Below, piece after piece: positions 14,816-22,933 of a DNA stretch of 64,000 nucleotides (within the stretch, counting starts at the first letter, position 1; every line of letters begins with the position of its first letter). A program made the position numbers and the translations under genes. The stretch covers positions 124,001-188,000 of the forward strand of contig NZ_PVWK01000140.1 in the NCBI RefSeq assembly GCF_003003795.1, written 5' to 3'. This DNA comes from Stenomitos frigidus ULC18 (GTDB lineage: Bacteria; Cyanobacteriota; Cyanobacteriia; Leptolyngbyales; Leptolyngbyaceae). The notes beneath the pieces were generated by a model. The model was not told where the DNA came from. It did no database searches and worked only from the letters and a program-made list of their open reading frames with translations.

Positions 14816-15118
14816 ATGGCAACGACTTACAAGATCAGGCTCAAGAACGAAGCAGAAGGCATTGACCAGACCGTAGATGTTTCGGATGATGCGTACATTC
14901 TTGAAACGGCTGAAACCGAAGGTATGGAACTGCCGTTTTCTTGCCGCCAGGGCGTATGTTCCACCTGTACTGGAAAGTTGATTGAAGGTTCGGTTGATCA
15001 ATCAGAACAATCCTATCTGGATGAAGATCAGGTTGCGGCTGGCTACGTGTTGATCTGCGTTGCACATCCTACTTCTGACTGCACAATCGAGACTCATAAA
15101 GAGGAAGAACTGGCCTAG
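14816..15118 (+). CDS. petF: Plant-type [2Fe-2S] ferredoxin
   Basis: A 100-residue soluble electron carrier. The cluster ligands are C43, C48, C51 and C81, in the C-x4-C-x2-C-x29-C spacing of plant-type ferredoxins, and the C-terminal [13 protein letters not shown] is nearly the classical PetF ending. The loop reads CRQGVCSTC where the main photosynthetic ferredoxin usually has CRAGACSTC, so this may be a secondary PetF paralogue and not the principal photosystem I acceptor. A GAAGG motif precedes the ATG. It is flanked by long gaps and probably has its own promoter. Confidence 0.92.
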
Positions 15119-15158
15119 ACAGATTAAGCGGTAAACGGAATGCACGATCAATGATTTA

Positions 15159-15231
15159 GGACTGATGCATCTTGACCAAAACCTCCGAGGTTTAGCGACA
15201 ACATTAGTTGCGATGCTTGATGCTTGGTTAA
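15159..15231. repeat. 74 bp dispersed repeat, copy 1
   Basis: From GGACTGATGCATCTTGACC to GATGCTTGATGCTTGGTTAA. A second copy in the same orientation at 16217-16290 matches at roughly four of every five positions. The centre contains AACCTCCGAGGTTT, a palindromic core also used in the hairpin at 9183. The two copies bracket the conserved hypothetical gene and the 21 bp tandem array. Confidence 0.7.
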
Positions 15232-15268
15232 CGTGAGTCGGATCAAAGCGATCGCCCGCCTACACCGA

Positions 15269-15733
15269 CTATTCAGTCATCCCGGTCTTCTTCAGCTTGC
15301 GACCAAACCGTTGACCCATATCATCCACCAGCGCATCCAGTCCACTGCCTTCGCCGTGAGCTTTTACATGGCGATAGACTTGCAGTGCCGCTGAGTAGGC
15401 ATCACTACCAACCGCAACCAGTGTGTCGTCAAGCTCGGCTTGAAGCTGGTTCAGCGCCATTGCGATGGGATAAATCGCTTCAAAGAGAGCGACATCCCGC
15501 TGCATTTCCTCCAGGTCAAAGGAGCGGGGCAGATAGTCCGGGTGTTGCGTGGCAACTTCCATTGCTTTGTGGACAAACGCCCGACTCTTATCACCCATTT
15601 TGGGCAGCGCCCGCTTTGCTTTACCTGCCATTTCAATGATGAAAGGAAGTTTGGTACGAATCTCCGCCAGGTCTGCCAAAATTTGCTCACGGTCTTGAGG
15701 TAGTAGCGCTCCACTGATGTAGTTGGATGTCAT
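15269..15733 (-). CDS. Conserved protein of unknown function, helical
   Basis: About 154 residues from the ATG at 15733 (MTSNYISGALLPQ); in-frame starts at 15760 (ATG) and 15787 (TTG) would lengthen it. It is predicted mostly helical, with an N-terminal segment of charged and hydrophobic residues (REQILADLAEIRTKLPFIIEM), a centre rich in Met and Asp, and a C-terminal tail with basic residues (GQRFGRKLKKTGMTE). There are no membrane helices and no catalytic motif that I recognise. It resembles short proteins conserved in cyanobacteria and some other bacteria without known function. The gene lies inside the block bracketed by the two 74 bp repeats. Confidence 0.6.
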   Translation of the reverse strand: MTSNYISGALLPQDREQILADLAEIRTKLPFIIEMAGKAKRALPKMGDKSRAFVHKAMEVATQHPDYLPRSFDLEEMQRDVALFEAIYPIAMALNQLQAELDDTLVAVGSDAYSAALQVYRHVKAHGEGSGLDALVDDMGQRFGRKLKKTGMTE

Positions 15734-15790
15734 GAGAGGGATCTTCACTGAACTGACCATCTTATAGTTCCCAAAGGCTTTAGACAATCC

Positions 15791-16186
15791 TCAACGAGCC
15801 GAAACAAATTCTACCGTTTTGCGTGCTTGCACTCTACCAACGACGAAACGTTTGAGAAGTGCGACGAAACGTTGGTGGCTTGCCGAGAAATTTTCACGGG
15901 TTGTCGAGAAGATTTGTACGATCGCCGAGAAATCTTCATCGATCGTCGAGAAAATTTGGACGATCGCTAAGACATTTTGGTGGCTTGCGGCGAAACGTTC
16001 ACGGATGATTGAGTAAATTGGGAAAGTTAACCGAGAACGGTTGGTGAGCGTGAAACATTCTTTCACCCACGACCCTGAACATCTCACAGGTGTTCTCGAA
16101 AATTTGACCGATTGCCTCGTTAGGGTAGTCAAATGAAGATCAAAAATGGCGTGAGCTGAATTGCAGCATATCGCTGGCTTCTGCAT
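15791..16186 (-). CDS. Questionable heptad-repeat ORF across a 21 bp array
   Basis: A 131-codon frame from ATG 16186 (GTG at 16192 possible). Its C-terminal half reads through the 21 bp tandem array and so is made of seven-residue units with Phe at a fixed place: FAASHQN, VLAIVQI, FSTIDED, FSAIVQI, FSTTREN, FSASHQR, FVALLKR. The N-terminal half has no recognisable features. The frame ends just before the hypothetical gene at 15733. Since the array is also open on the opposite strand, with units such as AEKFSRV, VEKICTI and AEKSSSI, openness alone does not prove a gene. No clear ribosome site is seen. Confidence 0.3.
   Translation of the reverse strand: MQKPAICCNSAHAIFDLHLTTLTRQSVKFSRTPVRCSGSWVKECFTLTNRSRLTFPIYSIIRERFAASHQNVLAIVQIFSTIDEDFSAIVQIFSTTRENFSASHQRFVALLKRFVVGRVQARKTVEFVSAR
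15841..16029. repeat. 21 bp tandem repeat array, about nine units
   Basis: Eight clear units of exactly 21 bp start at 15841, 15862, 15883, 15904, 15925, 15946, 15967 and 15988, with a decayed ninth at 16009. The shared frame is CGAGAAA-TTT at the start and a GATCG or GCTTG at the end of units. Units diverge by several bases but the period never slips, so reading frame is kept on both strands. No spacer sequences differ in the CRISPR manner. Confidence 0.85.
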
Positions 16187-16216
16187 CGTCACGCAAAGCT
16201 GCCTTGAACACTAACA

Positions 16217-16290
16217 GGACTGACGCATTTTGACCAGAACCTCGGAGATTTCAGCGATAACATTGGTGACAATGCTTGATGCTTGGTTCA
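16217..16290. repeat. 74 bp dispersed repeat, copy 2
   Basis: GGACTGACGCATTTTGACC through GCTTGATGCTTGGTTCA, direct repeat of 15159-15231. After it, AAACTTCTGAGGTTT may be a further decayed palindromic core. It marks the right border of the block that holds the 21 bp array. Confidence 0.7.
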
Positions 16291-16334: not shown

Positions 16335-16466
16335 ATTAAATAAAACCGTCTATTCCAACTGTAGGGGCGAAGCCTTCGGTAGCTGATCCTGATTGCATTG
16401 CAAAGCCTTTGCCCGAAGGCTTCGCCCCTACCAAATCTTATTTAATTCCCGTTCCTAAGACGGTTT
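16335..16466. repeat. Nested palindromic repeat element
   Basis: Three nested inverted pairs: ATTAAATAA (16335-16343) with TTATTTAAT (16438-16446), AAACCGTCT (16343-16351) with AGACGGTTT (16458-16466), and a 19 bp perfect stem GTAGGGGCGAAGCCTTCGG (16361-16379) with its complement at 16413-16431. The inner stem belongs to a palindrome type scattered in cyanobacterial genomes. No coding capacity. It could be a MITE-like unit; no target duplication was found. Confidence 0.65.
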
Positions 16467-16656: not shown

Positions 16657-19600
16657 ATGGTCTCCTCGAATATGACCAGCAATCCATCCAACTATTTTGT
16701 CCATACCCTGCTACGGGCACGCGACTGGCAGCATCGCCCTGAGTTCGATCGAGTCTGTGAGTGGTGGCGCACGGGTGGTCAGGGTGTGTGTGGTCTGGTG
16801 GGCATGGGTGGTGCGGGTAAAACGGCGATTGTCGATCGGCTGTTGCAAGTGCTGCCAGGGGTAATGCTGCCAAACCCCAGGCTACCAAAAGACAACACGC
16901 TACCAGCGCCCAACAGCACCGTTGTCTTTTCCTTCTACGACGCGCCCAATGCCGAAGCGTTTTTTGAGGCGCTGTCGATCTGGCTTTCTGGAGCACCCAA
17001 TGGTGCAACGGCAGTGTCCTACAGCCAACTGATCTTTCGGATGCAGAATGCTGTACCGGGGTTAATTGTGCTGGATGGCTTGGAAAAGGTGCAGGAAGAC
17101 GGGACGCGGGGAATTCTCGGACGGATTGATGCCCCAAATCTACGGGACTTTGTCAATCGGGCAGCAAATGGTTACTTTCCTCGCTTGAGCGTGCTGCTTA
17201 CGACTCGCTTTCCTCTGGCAGATCTCCAGGAAGAGCAGCCCCCGTTCTTTCAATCTATCCCCATTGAGGAAATCGACACCTCGATGGGCATCAATTTGCT
17301 GCGTCAGCGGGGAGTACGAGGACGTGACCTTCAGCTAGAGCACATTGTGAAAGAGTGCGGCTGCCATGCCCTCACGGTCGATCTGGCTGGAGGCTACATC
17401 AAAGAATATGGCAAGGGTGATCCAGATACTCCATTGGCGCTGGGCGCTGCCATCGAGCTAGAGCAAGCGGTGGAGCAAGAACAAGACCCCACTAAGCGCG
17501 CTGTCTTAAAACAGGGGTTTCGCTTTGCCCGCGTTGCTCAGCGCTATCAGGCAGCAATGCTGGAGCATGACCCTGCTGCCCTTGCCCTGCTGGAACGGAT
17601 CTGTCTGTTTCGGTTGGGAGTGGATGCAACAACGCTGGCGGCAATCTTTACTGGGGAAGCGGCGGTGCCGGTGTCGGGGGCAGCGCTGGCGGGGTTAAGC
17701 GCTCAACAGCTCCAGCGTAAGCTCGACTGGCTGGTGCAGATGCGGATTATTGAGGAAACCAGAGTGCAGTCTCGCGATCGCACCACGCGCATCCTGTACA
17801 ACATTCACCCTGCCGTGCGCGATGGTTTTGTGCAGGGCATTGGTCGTGATATTGCCGCCCTTAGCCACCAGGCGATCCGCACCGGGCTGGAAGTCTCCCT
17901 GGGAAAGACTCCTGGCGAAAACCCCTCCGACCCCGCCACCCTAGATCTGCTGGAAGAGATTGTGTATCACGCCATCGCCAGCGGGCAGGTACAGGAGGCA
18001 TATAAAATCCATCGGGATAAGATCGGTGGGCACCAGAACCTGGGCTGGCGGCTGGGTGCTTATGAGCGGGGTGAACGGATTTGCCGTGCCTTTGGCGGCG
18101 CACAGTCCCCGGAAACGATTGCTGCGCTGCTGCGAGATCCCCACCGGCTCGCGAAAACGTTCCTCCCCTGCCTCCCCCTGTCCGACGCTGATCGAGCTGT
18201 CTTTATCAACGAATGGGGGCTGTATCTGCAAGCGCTTGGCCGCCTTGATGCCGCTGCCCGCTGCTGCGAAGCTCATATCGACATGCGAATGCGGCAGGAG
18301 AACTGGCAAAACGCCTCGAGGGGAAACCAGAACCTGTCTGGTGTGTGGCTGCTGGCAGGGCGACTGCGGTTGGCACTGGCGAGTGCTGAGGAGGCGTTGC
18401 GCCTGGCAGAGCAAGCTGACAGTAATGAACGTCGCTATCAATCATTTATCCTTCTTAGTCAGTCCCATACTGCGCTGGGGAAACCACGAGAGACGCTCAA
18501 TCACTTTGCAGACTGCCAGCGCCTCTGGGGAACAGCTCCACTGGATAGCAGTTTAGGTAACGCCTACAGTATATTTTTGAGCCTGATGGGTCGTCGGCAG
18601 GAGGCGACCAGGTTTTGTGAAGGCAACAAAAGACGGTGCCGAGACCGATGGGGCGAAGCAGATGAATTTTCCCCCATCGCAGACCTCATTCTTGCTGATT
18701 TGTGGCTCAGCGCTGGAACGGTGCAATCGGCTCGAGATTGCTACCGTCAAGCCTATGACTGGGCGCTGGCGCGAGAGGCGAAGGACGTTTTATGTCGGGC
18801 AGCACTGGTCAAAGCTCGCATTGAGCTGGCAGAAGCCAGGAGTCAGGAGTCAGGAGTGAGGGCAGAACCGTTACAAGCGGCTCAGAATGCCCTTATGGAA
18901 GGGCTAAAGCTTGCGGTTGACTGTGGCTATGGCATCCATCACATTGACCTGCTGCTAGAGCAGACTCACCTGCATCTCTTCCTGGGCAAACCTCAAGCCG
19001 CCCTCGCTGACCTGCACCTTGCCCTTGATGGCGGCATTCCTGCAAACGACCAGATCGGTCAACCCGAACTGCTGGCAGCGCATGACCCAGAGTGCGGCTA
19101 TGCCTGGGGGATTGCCCTCGGTCTGCACCGCCGTGCCGAAGCCCTGCTGCTGCAAGCCGCTCACACACTGGGCACCGATTCCTTTGCTCCCGCTCGGCGC
19201 AAGACATTGCCTGCAACTGTTCAAACCCTGATGACTCAAGCAGAAGCCTGCCTCACCGCTGCCATGATCTGCTGGCACGACCTGCGTGACCCAGAGGTGC
19301 AGGATTCCAATTTTATTCACCCCACCACAGATGAGGCATATAACTATCGCGCTGCTGAAACCTACCGGGTGCTAAACGATTTGCAGGGCGGGTTGCTGAC
19401 CCAATATCCCCTCCCCTCCCGTACAGACACCACTACCCCGGAGCCGCTCTCTCCCTCAGAATTGCTCATGACGAAACGCTTCAATGTTGCCCTGTCTTTT
19501 CCGGGTGAACATCGCCCCTTTGTTGCCGCGATTGCCGATGTGCTAGCCCAAACCCTGACAAAGCCCAGAGTCTTCTACGATCGTTTCTACGAAGCCGAAC

Positions 19601-19896
19601 TCGCACGCCCCAATCTCGACATCTATCTGCAACGCATCTACCCCGACGATGCTGACTTGATTGTGGTATTCCTCTGCGAAGACTACAACAACAAAGAATG
19701 GTGCCATTTGGAAGCCCGCGCCATCCGCGACCTGATCAAGCAGCGGCGGGATGAGGAGATTATGTTTGTCCGTGTAGATAATGGCAAGGTCGATGGAGTG
19801 TTCTCCGTCGATGGCTACGTCAATGCCCACGATCGACCTGCTAGTGAGATTGCCCAGTTAATTTGTGAGAGACTGCAACGGGTTCAGGCTGGGTGA
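16657..19896 (+). CDS. STAND ATPase - TPR - TIR protein (putative defence protein)
   Basis: A 1079-residue protein from ATG 16657 (ATG 16672 is equally possible). Domains in order: a STAND/NB-ARC-like NTPase with P-loop GMGGAGKT from residue 49, a Walker B-like LIVLDGLEK near 137 and a following LTTRFPL sensor-like segment; a helical middle region (about 430-900) with tetratricopeptide-like pairs; and a C-terminal TIR domain from about residue 938, starting FNVALSFPGEHRPF. The TIR has the acidic residue expected in NADase TIRs as WCHLE, with Glu at about 1019. In known TIR-STAND proteins a trigger bound by the repeat region causes ATP-dependent oligomerisation and TIR NAD+ cleavage; that is inference here. 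Three AGGAGTC copies are inserted in frame at 18838-18858. It holds one HIP1 octamer by my count against four in the shorter neighbour ileS. No cofactor gene is adjacent. Confidence 0.87.
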   Translation: MVSSNMTSNPSNYFVHTLLRARDWQHRPEFDRVCEWWRTGGQGVCGLVGMGGAGKTAIVDRLLQVLPGVMLPNPRLPKDNTLPAPNSTVVFSFYDAPNAEAFFEALSIWLSGAPNGATAVSYSQLIFRMQNAVPGLIVLDGLEKVQEDGTRGILGRIDAPNLRDFVNRAANGYFPRLSVLLTTRFPLADLQEEQPPFFQSIPIEEIDTSMGINLLRQRGVRGRDLQLEHIVKECGCHALTVDLAGGYIKEYGKGDPDTPLALGAAIELEQAVEQEQDPTKRAVLKQGFRFARVAQRYQAAMLEHDPAALALLERICLFRLGVDATTLAAIFTGEAAVPVSGAALAGLSAQQLQRKLDWLVQMRIIEETRVQSRDRTTRILYNIHPAVRDGFVQGIGRDIAALSHQAIRTGLEVSLGKTPGENPSDPATLDLLEEIVYHAIASGQVQEAYKIHRDKIGGHQNLGWRLGAYERGERICRAFGGAQSPETIAALLRDPHRLAKTFLPCLPLSDADRAVFINEWGLYLQALGRLDAAARCCEAHIDMRMRQENWQNASRGNQNLSGVWLLAGRLRLALASAEEALRLAEQADSNERRYQSFILLSQSHTALGKPRETLNHFADCQRLWGTAPLDSSLGNAYSIFLSLMGRRQEATRFCEGNKRRCRDRWGEADEFSPIADLILADLWLSAGTVQSARDCYRQAYDWALAREAKDVLCRAALVKARIELAEARSQESGVRAEPLQAAQNALMEGLKLAVDCGYGIHHIDLLLEQTHLHLFLGKPQAALADLHLALDGGIPANDQIGQPELLAAHDPECGYAWGIALGLHRRAEALLLQAAHTLGTDSFAPARRKTLPATVQTLMTQAEACLTAAMICWHDLRDPEVQDSNFIHPTTDEAYNYRAAETYRVLNDLQGGLLTQYPLPSRTDTTTPEPLSPSELLMTKRFNVALSFPGEHRPFVAAIADVLAQTLTKPRVFYDRFYEAELARPNLDIYLQRIYPDDADLIVVFLCEDYNNKEWCHLEARAIRDLIKQRRDEEIMFVRVDNGKVDGVFSVDGYVNAHDRPASEIAQLICERLQRVQAG
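18838..18858. repeat. STRR AGGAGTC x3 inside the STAND-TIR coding region
   Basis: AGGAGTC, AGGAGTC, AGGAGTG in tandem. Twenty-one bases equal seven codons, so the frame stays open (RSQESGVR). It lies between helical repeats, in a place where a short loop insertion would be tolerated. Confidence 0.75.
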
Positions 19897-20038: not shown

Positions 20039-22933
20039 TCAAAACTCCCCTTCCAACGCGGGAATGCAGCGTTCGCAGAGTAGCGGATGTTCAGCCGATT
20101 CGCCAACGTGGGTGGAGTAGTTCCAGCAGCGATCGCACTTTTTGCCATCCGCATCAACCACACCGATTTGGAGAGCATTGGCTTGAGCGCTGTATTTCAA
20201 GCCCTCTAAACGTTCCGTCGAGTCTAAGAGTTCGACTTGAGACGTGAGGAACAGGTAGCGTAGCTCATCCACACCGTTGCCGCTCAAGCTATCGGCAGGA
20301 TTGAGTGCTTGCAGGGTTTGCTTGAGTTCTGCATCAGCCGTATACAGCAGCAGCTTGGCTTCCAGGGAAGAGCCGATCGCTTTGTCGGCGCGGGCTTTTT
20401 CCAGCACCTTGTTGACCTCATCGCGGCTTTGGGCGAGGGTTTGCCATTTTGTAGCTAACTCTGGTGCGCGCCACTGATCCTCTAGCGTGACCCATCCCGC
20501 CTGAAAGACAGACTTGTGCGGTGTGGCGTAGGGCAGCGCTTGCCAGATATCTTCTGCCATGTGGGAAAGGACGGGCGCGATCGCTTTTGCCAAGTTTTCG
20601 AGGGCGATCGCCAGAACGGTTTGGCAACTGCGACGACGGGGAGAATCGACCGCGCTGATGTAGAGCCGATCCTTGGCGCTATCCAGATAGAAGTTGGACA
20701 GATCCACGACACAGAAATTTAGTACCGTTTGGAAGAAGCGGAAGAACTGGAAGCTGTCGAAGGCATCCGTGACTTCGCTGAACACTTCGGTGATGCGATG
20801 GAGAAGGTAGCGATCGAGTTCTGGCAGTTGCTCATAAGGAACCGCATTTTTAGCTGGATCAAAATCATGCAGGTTGCCCAGCAAAAACCTTGCTGTGTTG
20901 CGGATCTTACGATAGACATCCGCCATCTGCTTGAGGACGGTTTTGCCCAGGCGCATGTCTGACGAATAATCCACCGAAGACACCCACAGCCGTAGGACAT
21001 CTGCCCCATAGGGTGGTTCTTCCTTCTGGTTTTTGCCGCCCTTGATGATGACCGTTGGATCAACGACATTGCCAAGAGACTTGCTCATCTTGTAGCCCTG
21101 CTCATCCAGCACAAAGCCGTGAGTCAGCACGGTTTTATAAGGCGCACAACCATTCACTGCCACACTGGTCAGCAGACTGGACTGAAACCAGCCGCGATGT
21201 TGGTCAGAGCCTTCTAGATAGATGTCAGCGGGGTACTTCAACTCGGAGCGTTGCTCTGCGACGGCTGCCCAGGAGGAACCGGAGTCGAACCACACGTCCA
21301 TCGTGTCGGTGCCTTTGCGGTAGGTGTGTCCGTTATTGCGGTAAGACTCTGGCAGCAGTGCTTCGACGGGCAGTTCCCACCAGGCATCGGAACCCTTCTC
21401 AGCCACGATCGCCTGTGCAAACGCGATCGTCTCCTGGGTCAGCAATGGCTCTCCTGTCGCTTCGTCGTAGAATACAGGAATGGGAACGCCCCAACTGCGC
21501 TGGCGGGAGATACACCAGTCCGACCGCTCCACCACCATTGACGTGATGCGGTTCTCGCTCTGCGCAGGAATCCAGCGTACGCCAGCGATCACGTCCAGTG
21601 CGCGATCGCGGAAGCCCTCGACAGAGGCAAACCACTGTTCTGTCGCTCGAAAGATGGTCGGCTTTTTGGTGCGCCAGTCGTAAGGATATTTGTGGACGTA
21701 GGGTTCTTCTTTCAGCAGCGATCGTGCCTCTTGAAGTGCCGCAATCACCGCCGTATTGCCGTCGCCCAGCACATTCAAGCCAGCAAACGGCCCCGCTTCG
21801 TCGGTGAAGTTGCCGTCGTCATCGACAGGTGCGAGGATGGGCAAGCCGTAGCGTTGACCAACAATATAGTCATCCTGACCATGACCGGGAGCGGTGTGGA
21901 CTAAACCTGTACCCGCTTCTGTGGTGACGTAATCGCCGCCGATGACGATCTCGCTGCGACGGTCAAAGAGGGGATGCTGGTAGGTCGTATGCTCCAGCGT
22001 TCTGCCCACCATTGTTGCCTGGACAGTCAGCGTGGTGCCCAGGATTTCTGAGAGGCGATCGACCAGATCCTTCGCGACGATCAAATACTTAAAGCGACCA
22101 GGAGCGTTTTCACCCACTTCTACGACCGCGTAGATCAGCTCTGGGTTGACGCTTACGGCTAAGTTGGCAGGGATCGTCCAGGGAGTCGTCGTCCAGATGG
22201 CAACGCCCAGTTCGCCCGTACCCATAAAGGAATCGAGCCCCATCATCAGCGCGGACGATAGCTGCTTGACCTCGAACGCCGCGTAAAGACTGCGCGAGGT
22301 GTGCCCTTCGGGATACTCTAGCTCTGCCTCTGCCAACGCTGTTTTAGAACTGGGGCTCCAATATACAGGCTTCAAGCCCCTGTAGATATAGCCTTTCAGC
22401 ACCATCTGCCCAAACACACCGATTTGCGCCGCTTCGTATTCGGGCTTCAGGGTCAGGTAGGGATGCTCCCAGTCACCCCACACGCCGTACCGTTTAAAGT
22501 CCTGTCGCTGCTGGTCAACGGTTTTGAGCGCAAACTCTTTTGCTTTCTGGCGTAATTTGAGCGGTGTTAACGCTTTACGCTCCTCAGATTTTAGGGTTTG
22601 CAGCACTTTCAGCTCGATCGGCAACCCGTGACAGTCCCAACCCGGCACATAACGTACCTTCCGACCTTGCAGTAATTGGTACTTGTTGATGACATCCTTC
22701 AACACCTTATTGAGCGCGTGCCCCATGTGCAGCGACCCGTTGGCATACGGTGGGCCATCGTGCAGCACAAACAGCTCGCCCGGATTCTCCTGCGATAGCT
22801 GCTGGTAAAGCTGTTCCTCCTCCCAGAATGCCTGTAGTTCCGGTTCCCGTTTGACCGCATTCGCGCGCATGTCAAAGTTCGTCTTGGGTAAATTAACCGT
22901 GTCTTTATAGGAGCCGGGTTCTGTAACAGTCAT
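20039..22933 (-). CDS. ileS: Isoleucyl-tRNA synthetase
   Basis: A 964-residue class I synthetase that charges tRNA-Ile in the cytoplasm. The HIGH motif is HMGH in GPPYANGSLHMGHALNK near residue 63 and the KMSKS motif is in GYKMSKSLGN near residue 620. The editing (CP1) domain lies between them, with TTPWTIPANLAVSVNP and GTGLVHTAPGHGQDDY. The C-terminus carries the zinc-binding cysteines CDRCWNYS and CERC seen in bacterial-type IleRS. Full length, no disruption. It is convergent with the STAND-TIR gene. Confidence 0.97.
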   Translation of the reverse strand: MTVTEPGSYKDTVNLPKTNFDMRANAVKREPELQAFWEEEQLYQQLSQENPGELFVLHDGPPYANGSLHMGHALNKVLKDVINKYQLLQGRKVRYVPGWDCHGLPIELKVLQTLKSEERKALTPLKLRQKAKEFALKTVDQQRQDFKRYGVWGDWEHPYLTLKPEYEAAQIGVFGQMVLKGYIYRGLKPVYWSPSSKTALAEAELEYPEGHTSRSLYAAFEVKQLSSALMMGLDSFMGTGELGVAIWTTTPWTIPANLAVSVNPELIYAVVEVGENAPGRFKYLIVAKDLVDRLSEILGTTLTVQATMVGRTLEHTTYQHPLFDRRSEIVIGGDYVTTEAGTGLVHTAPGHGQDDYIVGQRYGLPILAPVDDDGNFTDEAGPFAGLNVLGDGNTAVIAALQEARSLLKEEPYVHKYPYDWRTKKPTIFRATEQWFASVEGFRDRALDVIAGVRWIPAQSENRITSMVVERSDWCISRQRSWGVPIPVFYDEATGEPLLTQETIAFAQAIVAEKGSDAWWELPVEALLPESYRNNGHTYRKGTDTMDVWFDSGSSWAAVAEQRSELKYPADIYLEGSDQHRGWFQSSLLTSVAVNGCAPYKTVLTHGFVLDEQGYKMSKSLGNVVDPTVIIKGGKNQKEEPPYGADVLRLWVSSVDYSSDMRLGKTVLKQMADVYRKIRNTARFLLGNLHDFDPAKNAVPYEQLPELDRYLLHRITEVFSEVTDAFDSFQFFRFFQTVLNFCVVDLSNFYLDSAKDRLYISAVDSPRRRSCQTVLAIALENLAKAIAPVLSHMAEDIWQALPYATPHKSVFQAGWVTLEDQWRAPELATKWQTLAQSRDEVNKVLEKARADKAIGSSLEAKLLLYTADAELKQTLQALNPADSLSGNGVDELRYLFLTSQVELLDSTERLEGLKYSAQANALQIGVVDADGKKCDRCWNYSTHVGESAEHPLLCERCIPALEGEF

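Follow-up and report, generated by a model that had tools for sequence, protein, structure and literature searches.

An open reading frame of Stenomitos frigidus ULC18 encodes a rare single-gene receptor in which a STAND switch, a TPR superhelix and an exchangeable C-terminal TIR or SEFIR effector follow one another in the order of MalT. In the window (the whole 64,000-nucleotide stretch of DNA that was analysed) the frame at positions 16657-19896, its GMGGAGKT and WCHLE motifs and the glutamate at residue 1019 are present as the first-pass annotation had described them, and the domain evidence supports the proposal made there that one protein holds sensor, switch and effector. The protein probably serves as a receptor for defence or programmed death, and we put the probability that it works in abortive infection, as a one-gene receptor that depletes NAD through an exchangeable effector, at roughly 0.65. 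The gene is organized as follows:

16657..19896, + strand: CDS of 1079 aa, STAND-TPR-TIR receptor-effector (ORF list, Pfam, alignment with ortholog L052, structure model)
16720..17841, + strand: STAND NTPase module with NBD, helical and winged-helix parts, residues ~22-395 (motifs, ortholog identity, Foldseek)
16801-16824, + strand: P-loop GMGGAGKT, residue 49 (motif)
17062-17079, + strand: Walker B LIVLDG, residue 136 (motif)
17803-17823, + strand: winged-helix His motif IHPAVRD, residue 383 (motif)
17908..19407, + strand: TPR superhelix (sensor), residues ~418-917 (MalT domain III match, TPR matches in relatives)
18097..18816, + strand: variable middle of the superhelix, residues 481-720 (ortholog identity)
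19408..19470, + strand: flexible tether, residues 918-938, the site where ortholog effectors diverge (pLDDT, alignments)
19468..19470, + strand: in-frame ATG (Met938), first effector residue (present in 6 of 7 orthologs)
19486..19857, + strand: TIR_2 domain, residues 944-1067, in the TIR region 938-1079 (Pfam 36.2 bits, AbTir structural match)
19711..19713, + strand: codon of the catalytic glutamate E1019, in WCHLE (residue 1015) (TIR alignments)

Support for the ATG at 16657 as the start comes from the ortholog L052, which begins in register with it in the alignment (MVSQTPASNPTNYF versus MVSSNMTSNPSNYF). According to Pfam, the TIR_2 match of 36.2 bits exceeds its curated cut-off of 28, and the TPR_12 and NB-ARC matches are weak, below their respective cut-offs; the STAND and TPR assignment therefore needed independent support. 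This comes from homologs over the Pfam cut-offs, six full-length orthologs and the structure model. Some distant homologs of residues 22-819 in cyanobacterial genomes pass the cut-offs for NB-ARC, NACHT and TPR, and relatives of the protein show TPR_MalT and TPR_12 matches. The P-loop, the Walker B motif and the winged-helix His motif occur in the order typical of STAND proteins, and their columns are kept in the orthologs.

The full-length AlphaFold2 model has a mean pLDDT of 84.8, with tether residues 924-938 under 50. Foldseek ranks 6mfv first, a STAND protein whose sensor is made of TPRs (E 3.9e-9, low overall TM); residues 503-912 match domain III of MalT (1hz4) with a Z of 24.6 over 336 residues. 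The TPR superhelix at residues 418-917 provides the repeat sensor of STAND NTPases. Its 116-residue end, for which no match was found outside the window in 388 cyanobacteria and plasmids, was considered as a separate domain and rejected, as orthologs keep it and the model shows the end of a superhelix. The TIR alone superposes on AbTir (7uxu) with a Z of 15.0 and an r.m.s.d. of 2.2 over 128 residues, and the subfamily to which it belongs is ~19% identical to AbTir. In a TIR profile alignment E1019 coincides with the glutamate of AbTir and of the plant RPS4 TIRs, and it is invariant in 15 related TIRs. The domain thus combines the flavodoxin-like TIR fold with the catalytic glutamate of enzymatic TIRs; a conserved glutamate alone does not prove NADase activity. 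One protein therefore contains, in the order of MalT, a STAND switch, a TPR superhelix and an intact TIR. The P-loop, TPR and C-terminal TIR architecture of the first-pass annotation is borne out by the TIR_2 score, the homologs, the orthologs and the model, and of the checks it had proposed, the structure prediction agrees with it and the profile search confirms the TIR.

The same annotation had called a TIR behind TPRs less usual than an N-terminal one. The genome has 36 TIR_2 matches, and among the 33 that could be classified 22 are N-terminal and 8 C-terminal, so that the statement holds for all TIR proteins together; it fails for those with a P-loop, where 3 carry the TIR N-terminally and 4, plus the window protein, C-terminally. 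Long proteins with a C-terminal TIR include, judged by sequence, LRR- or WD40-linked Roc-COR-like ones and one NACHT-like protein. Judged by these counts, a C-terminal TIR is ordinary here.

Used alone as the query, the window protein found no ortholog in the genome collection; the orthologs were found by running a profile of distant cores over it. Six full-length loci beyond the window emerged: one cyanobacterial, four planctomycete and one from an unassigned bacterium. L052 from Leptolyngbyaceae MO_188.B28 and L057 from Planctomycetota KLAP164 have SEFIR tips, and L053 and L054, paralogs in the single genome of Pirellulaceae PLA7, canonical TIR_2 tips. L055 from Rhodopirellula bears a TIR of the window's type. 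The tail of L056, from the unassigned bacterium, starts like another TIR, hits the contig end and is unclassified, so that one of the seven full-length members, the window included, has an unreadable tail. The STAND-TPR receptor of the orthologs is 46-72% identical to that of the window, L052 being closest (72%). A survey for the same architecture, also proposed by the first-pass annotation, thus recovered the receptor at six loci with tips that differ (TIR or SEFIR), and the window's own kind of TIR in L055.

Among the best few candidates scored per genome, the window's own gene is alone in the 388 sampled cyanobacteria. Orthologs occur in at least 1 of 392 Planctomycetota, at least 2 of 170 members of the family of L055 (one of them a fragment with a stop) and at least 1 of 63 of the order of L052; these counts are lower bounds because only the best few candidates of each genome were scored. 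Viral contigs hold no relative of the core and none of the ortholog profile, and plasmids and phages gave matches to the TIR domain only, never to the receptor. In the tree the two cyanobacterial members sit among planctomycete ones: they are united with 100/100 support, the PLA7 pair is their less firmly supported neighbour (87/91), and the remaining members lie outside. Directly downstream of both Pirellulaceae paralogs lies another STAND-TPR gene, in which no effector is recognised (L053:7389-10115, L054:9162-12161), and the gene pair was duplicated together.

Across the orthologs a constant switch and a variable sensor are joined to an exchanged tip. The STAND part shows 52-79% identity up to residue 360, the superhelix middle (481-720) of the same orthologs 28-35%, and residues 761-840 about 70%. 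Between the window and L055 the TIRs are 62-65% identical and the receptors 49%. The tails of L052 and L057 are SEFIR domains according to Pfam and match the PADLOC bSEFIR model at 4.6e-47 and 3.5e-44, respectively. At the DNA level, L053 and L054 are 91.6-91.9% identical over 3.2 and 2.7 kb, and between these 92%-identical flanks about 250 bp (252 bp) in the middle of the TIR cannot be aligned, as expected of a replaced segment. By a parsimony count, at least three effector changes would be needed on the receptor tree. The rare relatives keep the receptor and carry quite different tips, so that the tip seems to be exchanged in evolution like a cassette.

A second scaffold tells a similar story. 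A WD40-Roc-COR-TIR protein of the window's genome (G000:C89, L169) is 64% identical over 709 residues up to the TIR to a protein of another cyanobacterium (L037:1868-4318); the two TIRs are not alignable, and that of L037 is 58% identical to the window's. Judged by these alignments, this is the same effector exchange in a second receptor family. The window's TIR type is also present at the end of small proteins encoded on Bradyrhizobium and Pseudomonas plasmids and of a Rhizobium S8 peptidase, and at the start of GUN4 and NTPase-TPR proteins. Its plasmid relatives adjoin recombinases, phage-type genes or a ThiF/Mov34 operon. On the Bradyrhizobium plasmid (L048:50-6420) the TIR relative closes an operon with Mov34, ThiF and a dsDNA nuclease-domain protein; on the Pseudomonas plasmid (L047:3312-8241) its neighbours are a reverse transcriptase, a recombinase and a gene of inovirus type.

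At the junction of receptor and effector, the effector opens with a methionine in 6 of the 7 orthologs, which amounts to five independent tails when the PLA7 pair is counted once. Other C-terminal TIR fusions have a methionine at the effector start in 2 of 9 cases (Fisher p 0.01, for a comparison picked post hoc). On a plain reading, the junction ATG would be a relic of the start codon with which a captured effector gene once began. GAGG or GGAAG-like stretches precede it in L052, L055 and L057, and none was seen before ATG 19468 in the window; an internal translation start at this ATG is possible. We regard it as decidedly improbable that the effector was captured as a whole reading frame including its start codon and is still also translated from ATG 19468, in which case the gene would yield both the receptor-effector and free TIR or SEFIR subunits that join a receptor-nucleated filament.

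The gene occupies a site with the following features:

14816..15118, + strand: [2Fe-2S] ferredoxin gene, bounding the variable site on the left (ORF list, congener comparison)
15158..16288, no strand: 1.06 kb holding two small ORFs (172 and 133 aa), flanked by two ~72-nt direct repeats (near 15158/16216)
15882-15978: degenerate 21-nt repeat units, inside 15158..16288
16361..16431, no strand: perfect 19-nt inverted repeat with a 33-nt spacer, upstream of the gene
20039..22933, - strand: ileS, convergent neighbour, bounding the variable site on the right (ORF list, congener comparison)

The convergent ileS and the block of repeats are both there, as the first-pass annotation had claimed. The two small ORFs at 15158-16288 match no Pfam family. 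The degenerate 21-nt repeats read as 7-residue repeats on both strands, and the inverted-repeat motif GTAGGGGCGAAGCNTTCGG has only four occurrences in the whole genome. In congener G001 the stop codons of the ferredoxin gene and ileS are about 50 bp apart and the site is empty, while G005 has a cupin and an MNT/HepT toxin-antitoxin pair there and G006 likewise carries an MNT/HepT pair, together with an AAA ATPase (accessory genes at L140:1325-2556 and L143:1347-4347). The site is variable and accepts accessory genes. Half-matches aside, the gene is absent from six congeners and other sampled family members, and a housekeeping gene at a constant chromosomal location was accordingly rejected. 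At 57.1% its GC content exceeds the 51.4 +/- 1.9% of same-sized stretches, none of which is that high. The absence from congeners, the empty or otherwise filled site, the position of the cyanobacterial members among planctomycete ones in the tree and the GC content support recent gain of the gene. The first-pass annotation had counted few HIP1 sites, as expected for an imported gene. The gene has a single HIP1 site, where the window averages 0.89 per kb (Poisson P = 0.22); this depletion is not significant, carries no weight and was rejected as evidence of import. No Rfam family was found near the gene, and no known defence gene adjoins it in the window.

How might such a protein act? The superhelix would bind a foreign or damage-signalling protein or a metabolite. 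Binding would free the ADP-locked STAND module, allowing ATP exchange and oligomerisation, which would bring the tethered C-terminal TIRs together into an active filament or tetramer. The clustered TIRs would cleave NAD+ through E1019, and with NAD+ depleted the infected cell would stop growing or die. TIR NADases work when clustered, and so do SEFIR domains, by way of the bSEFIR defence family. Effector exchange fits this mechanism, because every tip is a TIR-fold domain of a kind that becomes active on clustering; if clustering is all that the effector requires, whichever TIR-fold NADase the tether carries would do, and TIR and SEFIR tips would hence be exchangeable. Our estimate for defence draws on the domain order, the AbTir-like fold with its glutamate, the exchanged effectors, the variable sensor, the empty or variable site, the patchy distribution over two phyla and the plasmid neighbours of TIR relatives, which together would point to this function. 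It is lowered by the missing PADLOC match, by the absence of a known defence gene next to the gene in the window, by the distance of the TIR subfamily from AbTir and by the small number of full-length members, seven in all.

Could the TIR instead act by protein-protein contact, within a MalT-like signalling or developmental switch rather than in defence? The MalT domain order and the fold of the superhelix would suit this, and SEFIR and many animal TIR domains work as scaffolds. However, the catalytic glutamate is kept, the effectors were swapped for unrelated subtypes, the gene is absent from congeners at a site that hosts toxin-antitoxin genes, and it also occurs in Planctomycetota with their quite different physiology, so that we consider such a role unlikely. 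Rather unlikely, too, is a Thoeris-like arrangement in which the TIR makes a small cyclic ADP-ribose-type signal for a separate effector elsewhere in the genome, with no NAD+ depletion. AbTir makes cyclic ADPR isomers, and it is the closest solved fold to the window TIR. Bacterial TIRs are known to signal in such a manner (Ofir 2021, as cited in PMC10907252). Yet no SLOG, ThsA or macro-TM receptor gene lies beside the gene in the window, L055 or L057, and a swap to SEFIR or a canonical TIR would alter the product and break such a pairing. That the gene is a recent import without function here, as the lack of any upstream promoter-like site above chance and its single, sporadic copy might suggest, is very improbable given 1079 open codons, wholly intact motifs and 72% identity to an intact ortholog in another cyanobacterium.

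That bacterial immune systems exchange their effectors is well recognised (PMC12799240). Elsewhere such exchange is seen mostly between distant members or as N-terminal fusions, whereas here it can be traced at the nucleotide level within 92%-identical flanks of one genome, and across two phyla, with the window's TIR type also on an unrelated Roc-COR receptor. These natural chimeras form a set on which one could test whether clustering of the effector is all that a STAND receptor has to achieve.

Characterised antiviral STAND proteins usually carry an N-terminal effector and a variable C-terminal sensor (PMC10907252). The window protein shares with Avs (AVAST) and bNACHT a STAND switch, a repeat sensor and an effector in one polypeptide, with effector types that vary among members, but its STAND module is N-terminal and its effector lies C-terminally behind the sensor. 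No PADLOC family matches it at E 0.1. The single-gene bSEFIR defence is related through L052 and L057, in which the effector position is taken by a bSEFIR domain; the window has a TIR instead, the bSEFIR model matches neither the window protein nor its TIR, and the bSEFIR match includes no STAND-TPR receptor of this kind. Trypsin-NB-ARC-TPR and effectorless STAND-TPR proteins of cyanobacteria and other phyla have a homologous core (24-29% identical), but their effector is absent or an N-terminal protease, and they are without the last part of the superhelix, the tether and the TIR. Cyanobacterial Roc-COR-TIR proteins likewise place a C-terminal TIR on an NTPase, that of L037 being of the same subfamily, but a Roc GTPase and COR replace STAND and TPR. 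MalT-type regulators share the order of NTPase, superhelical repeat sensor and C-terminal output, and the superhelix resembles MalT domain III; their output is a LuxR-type DNA-binding (HTH) domain, whereas the window protein ends in a TIR and its orthologs in TIR or SEFIR. Such a MalT-like order would show that STAND proteins of the transcription-factor type and of the immune type share a layout.
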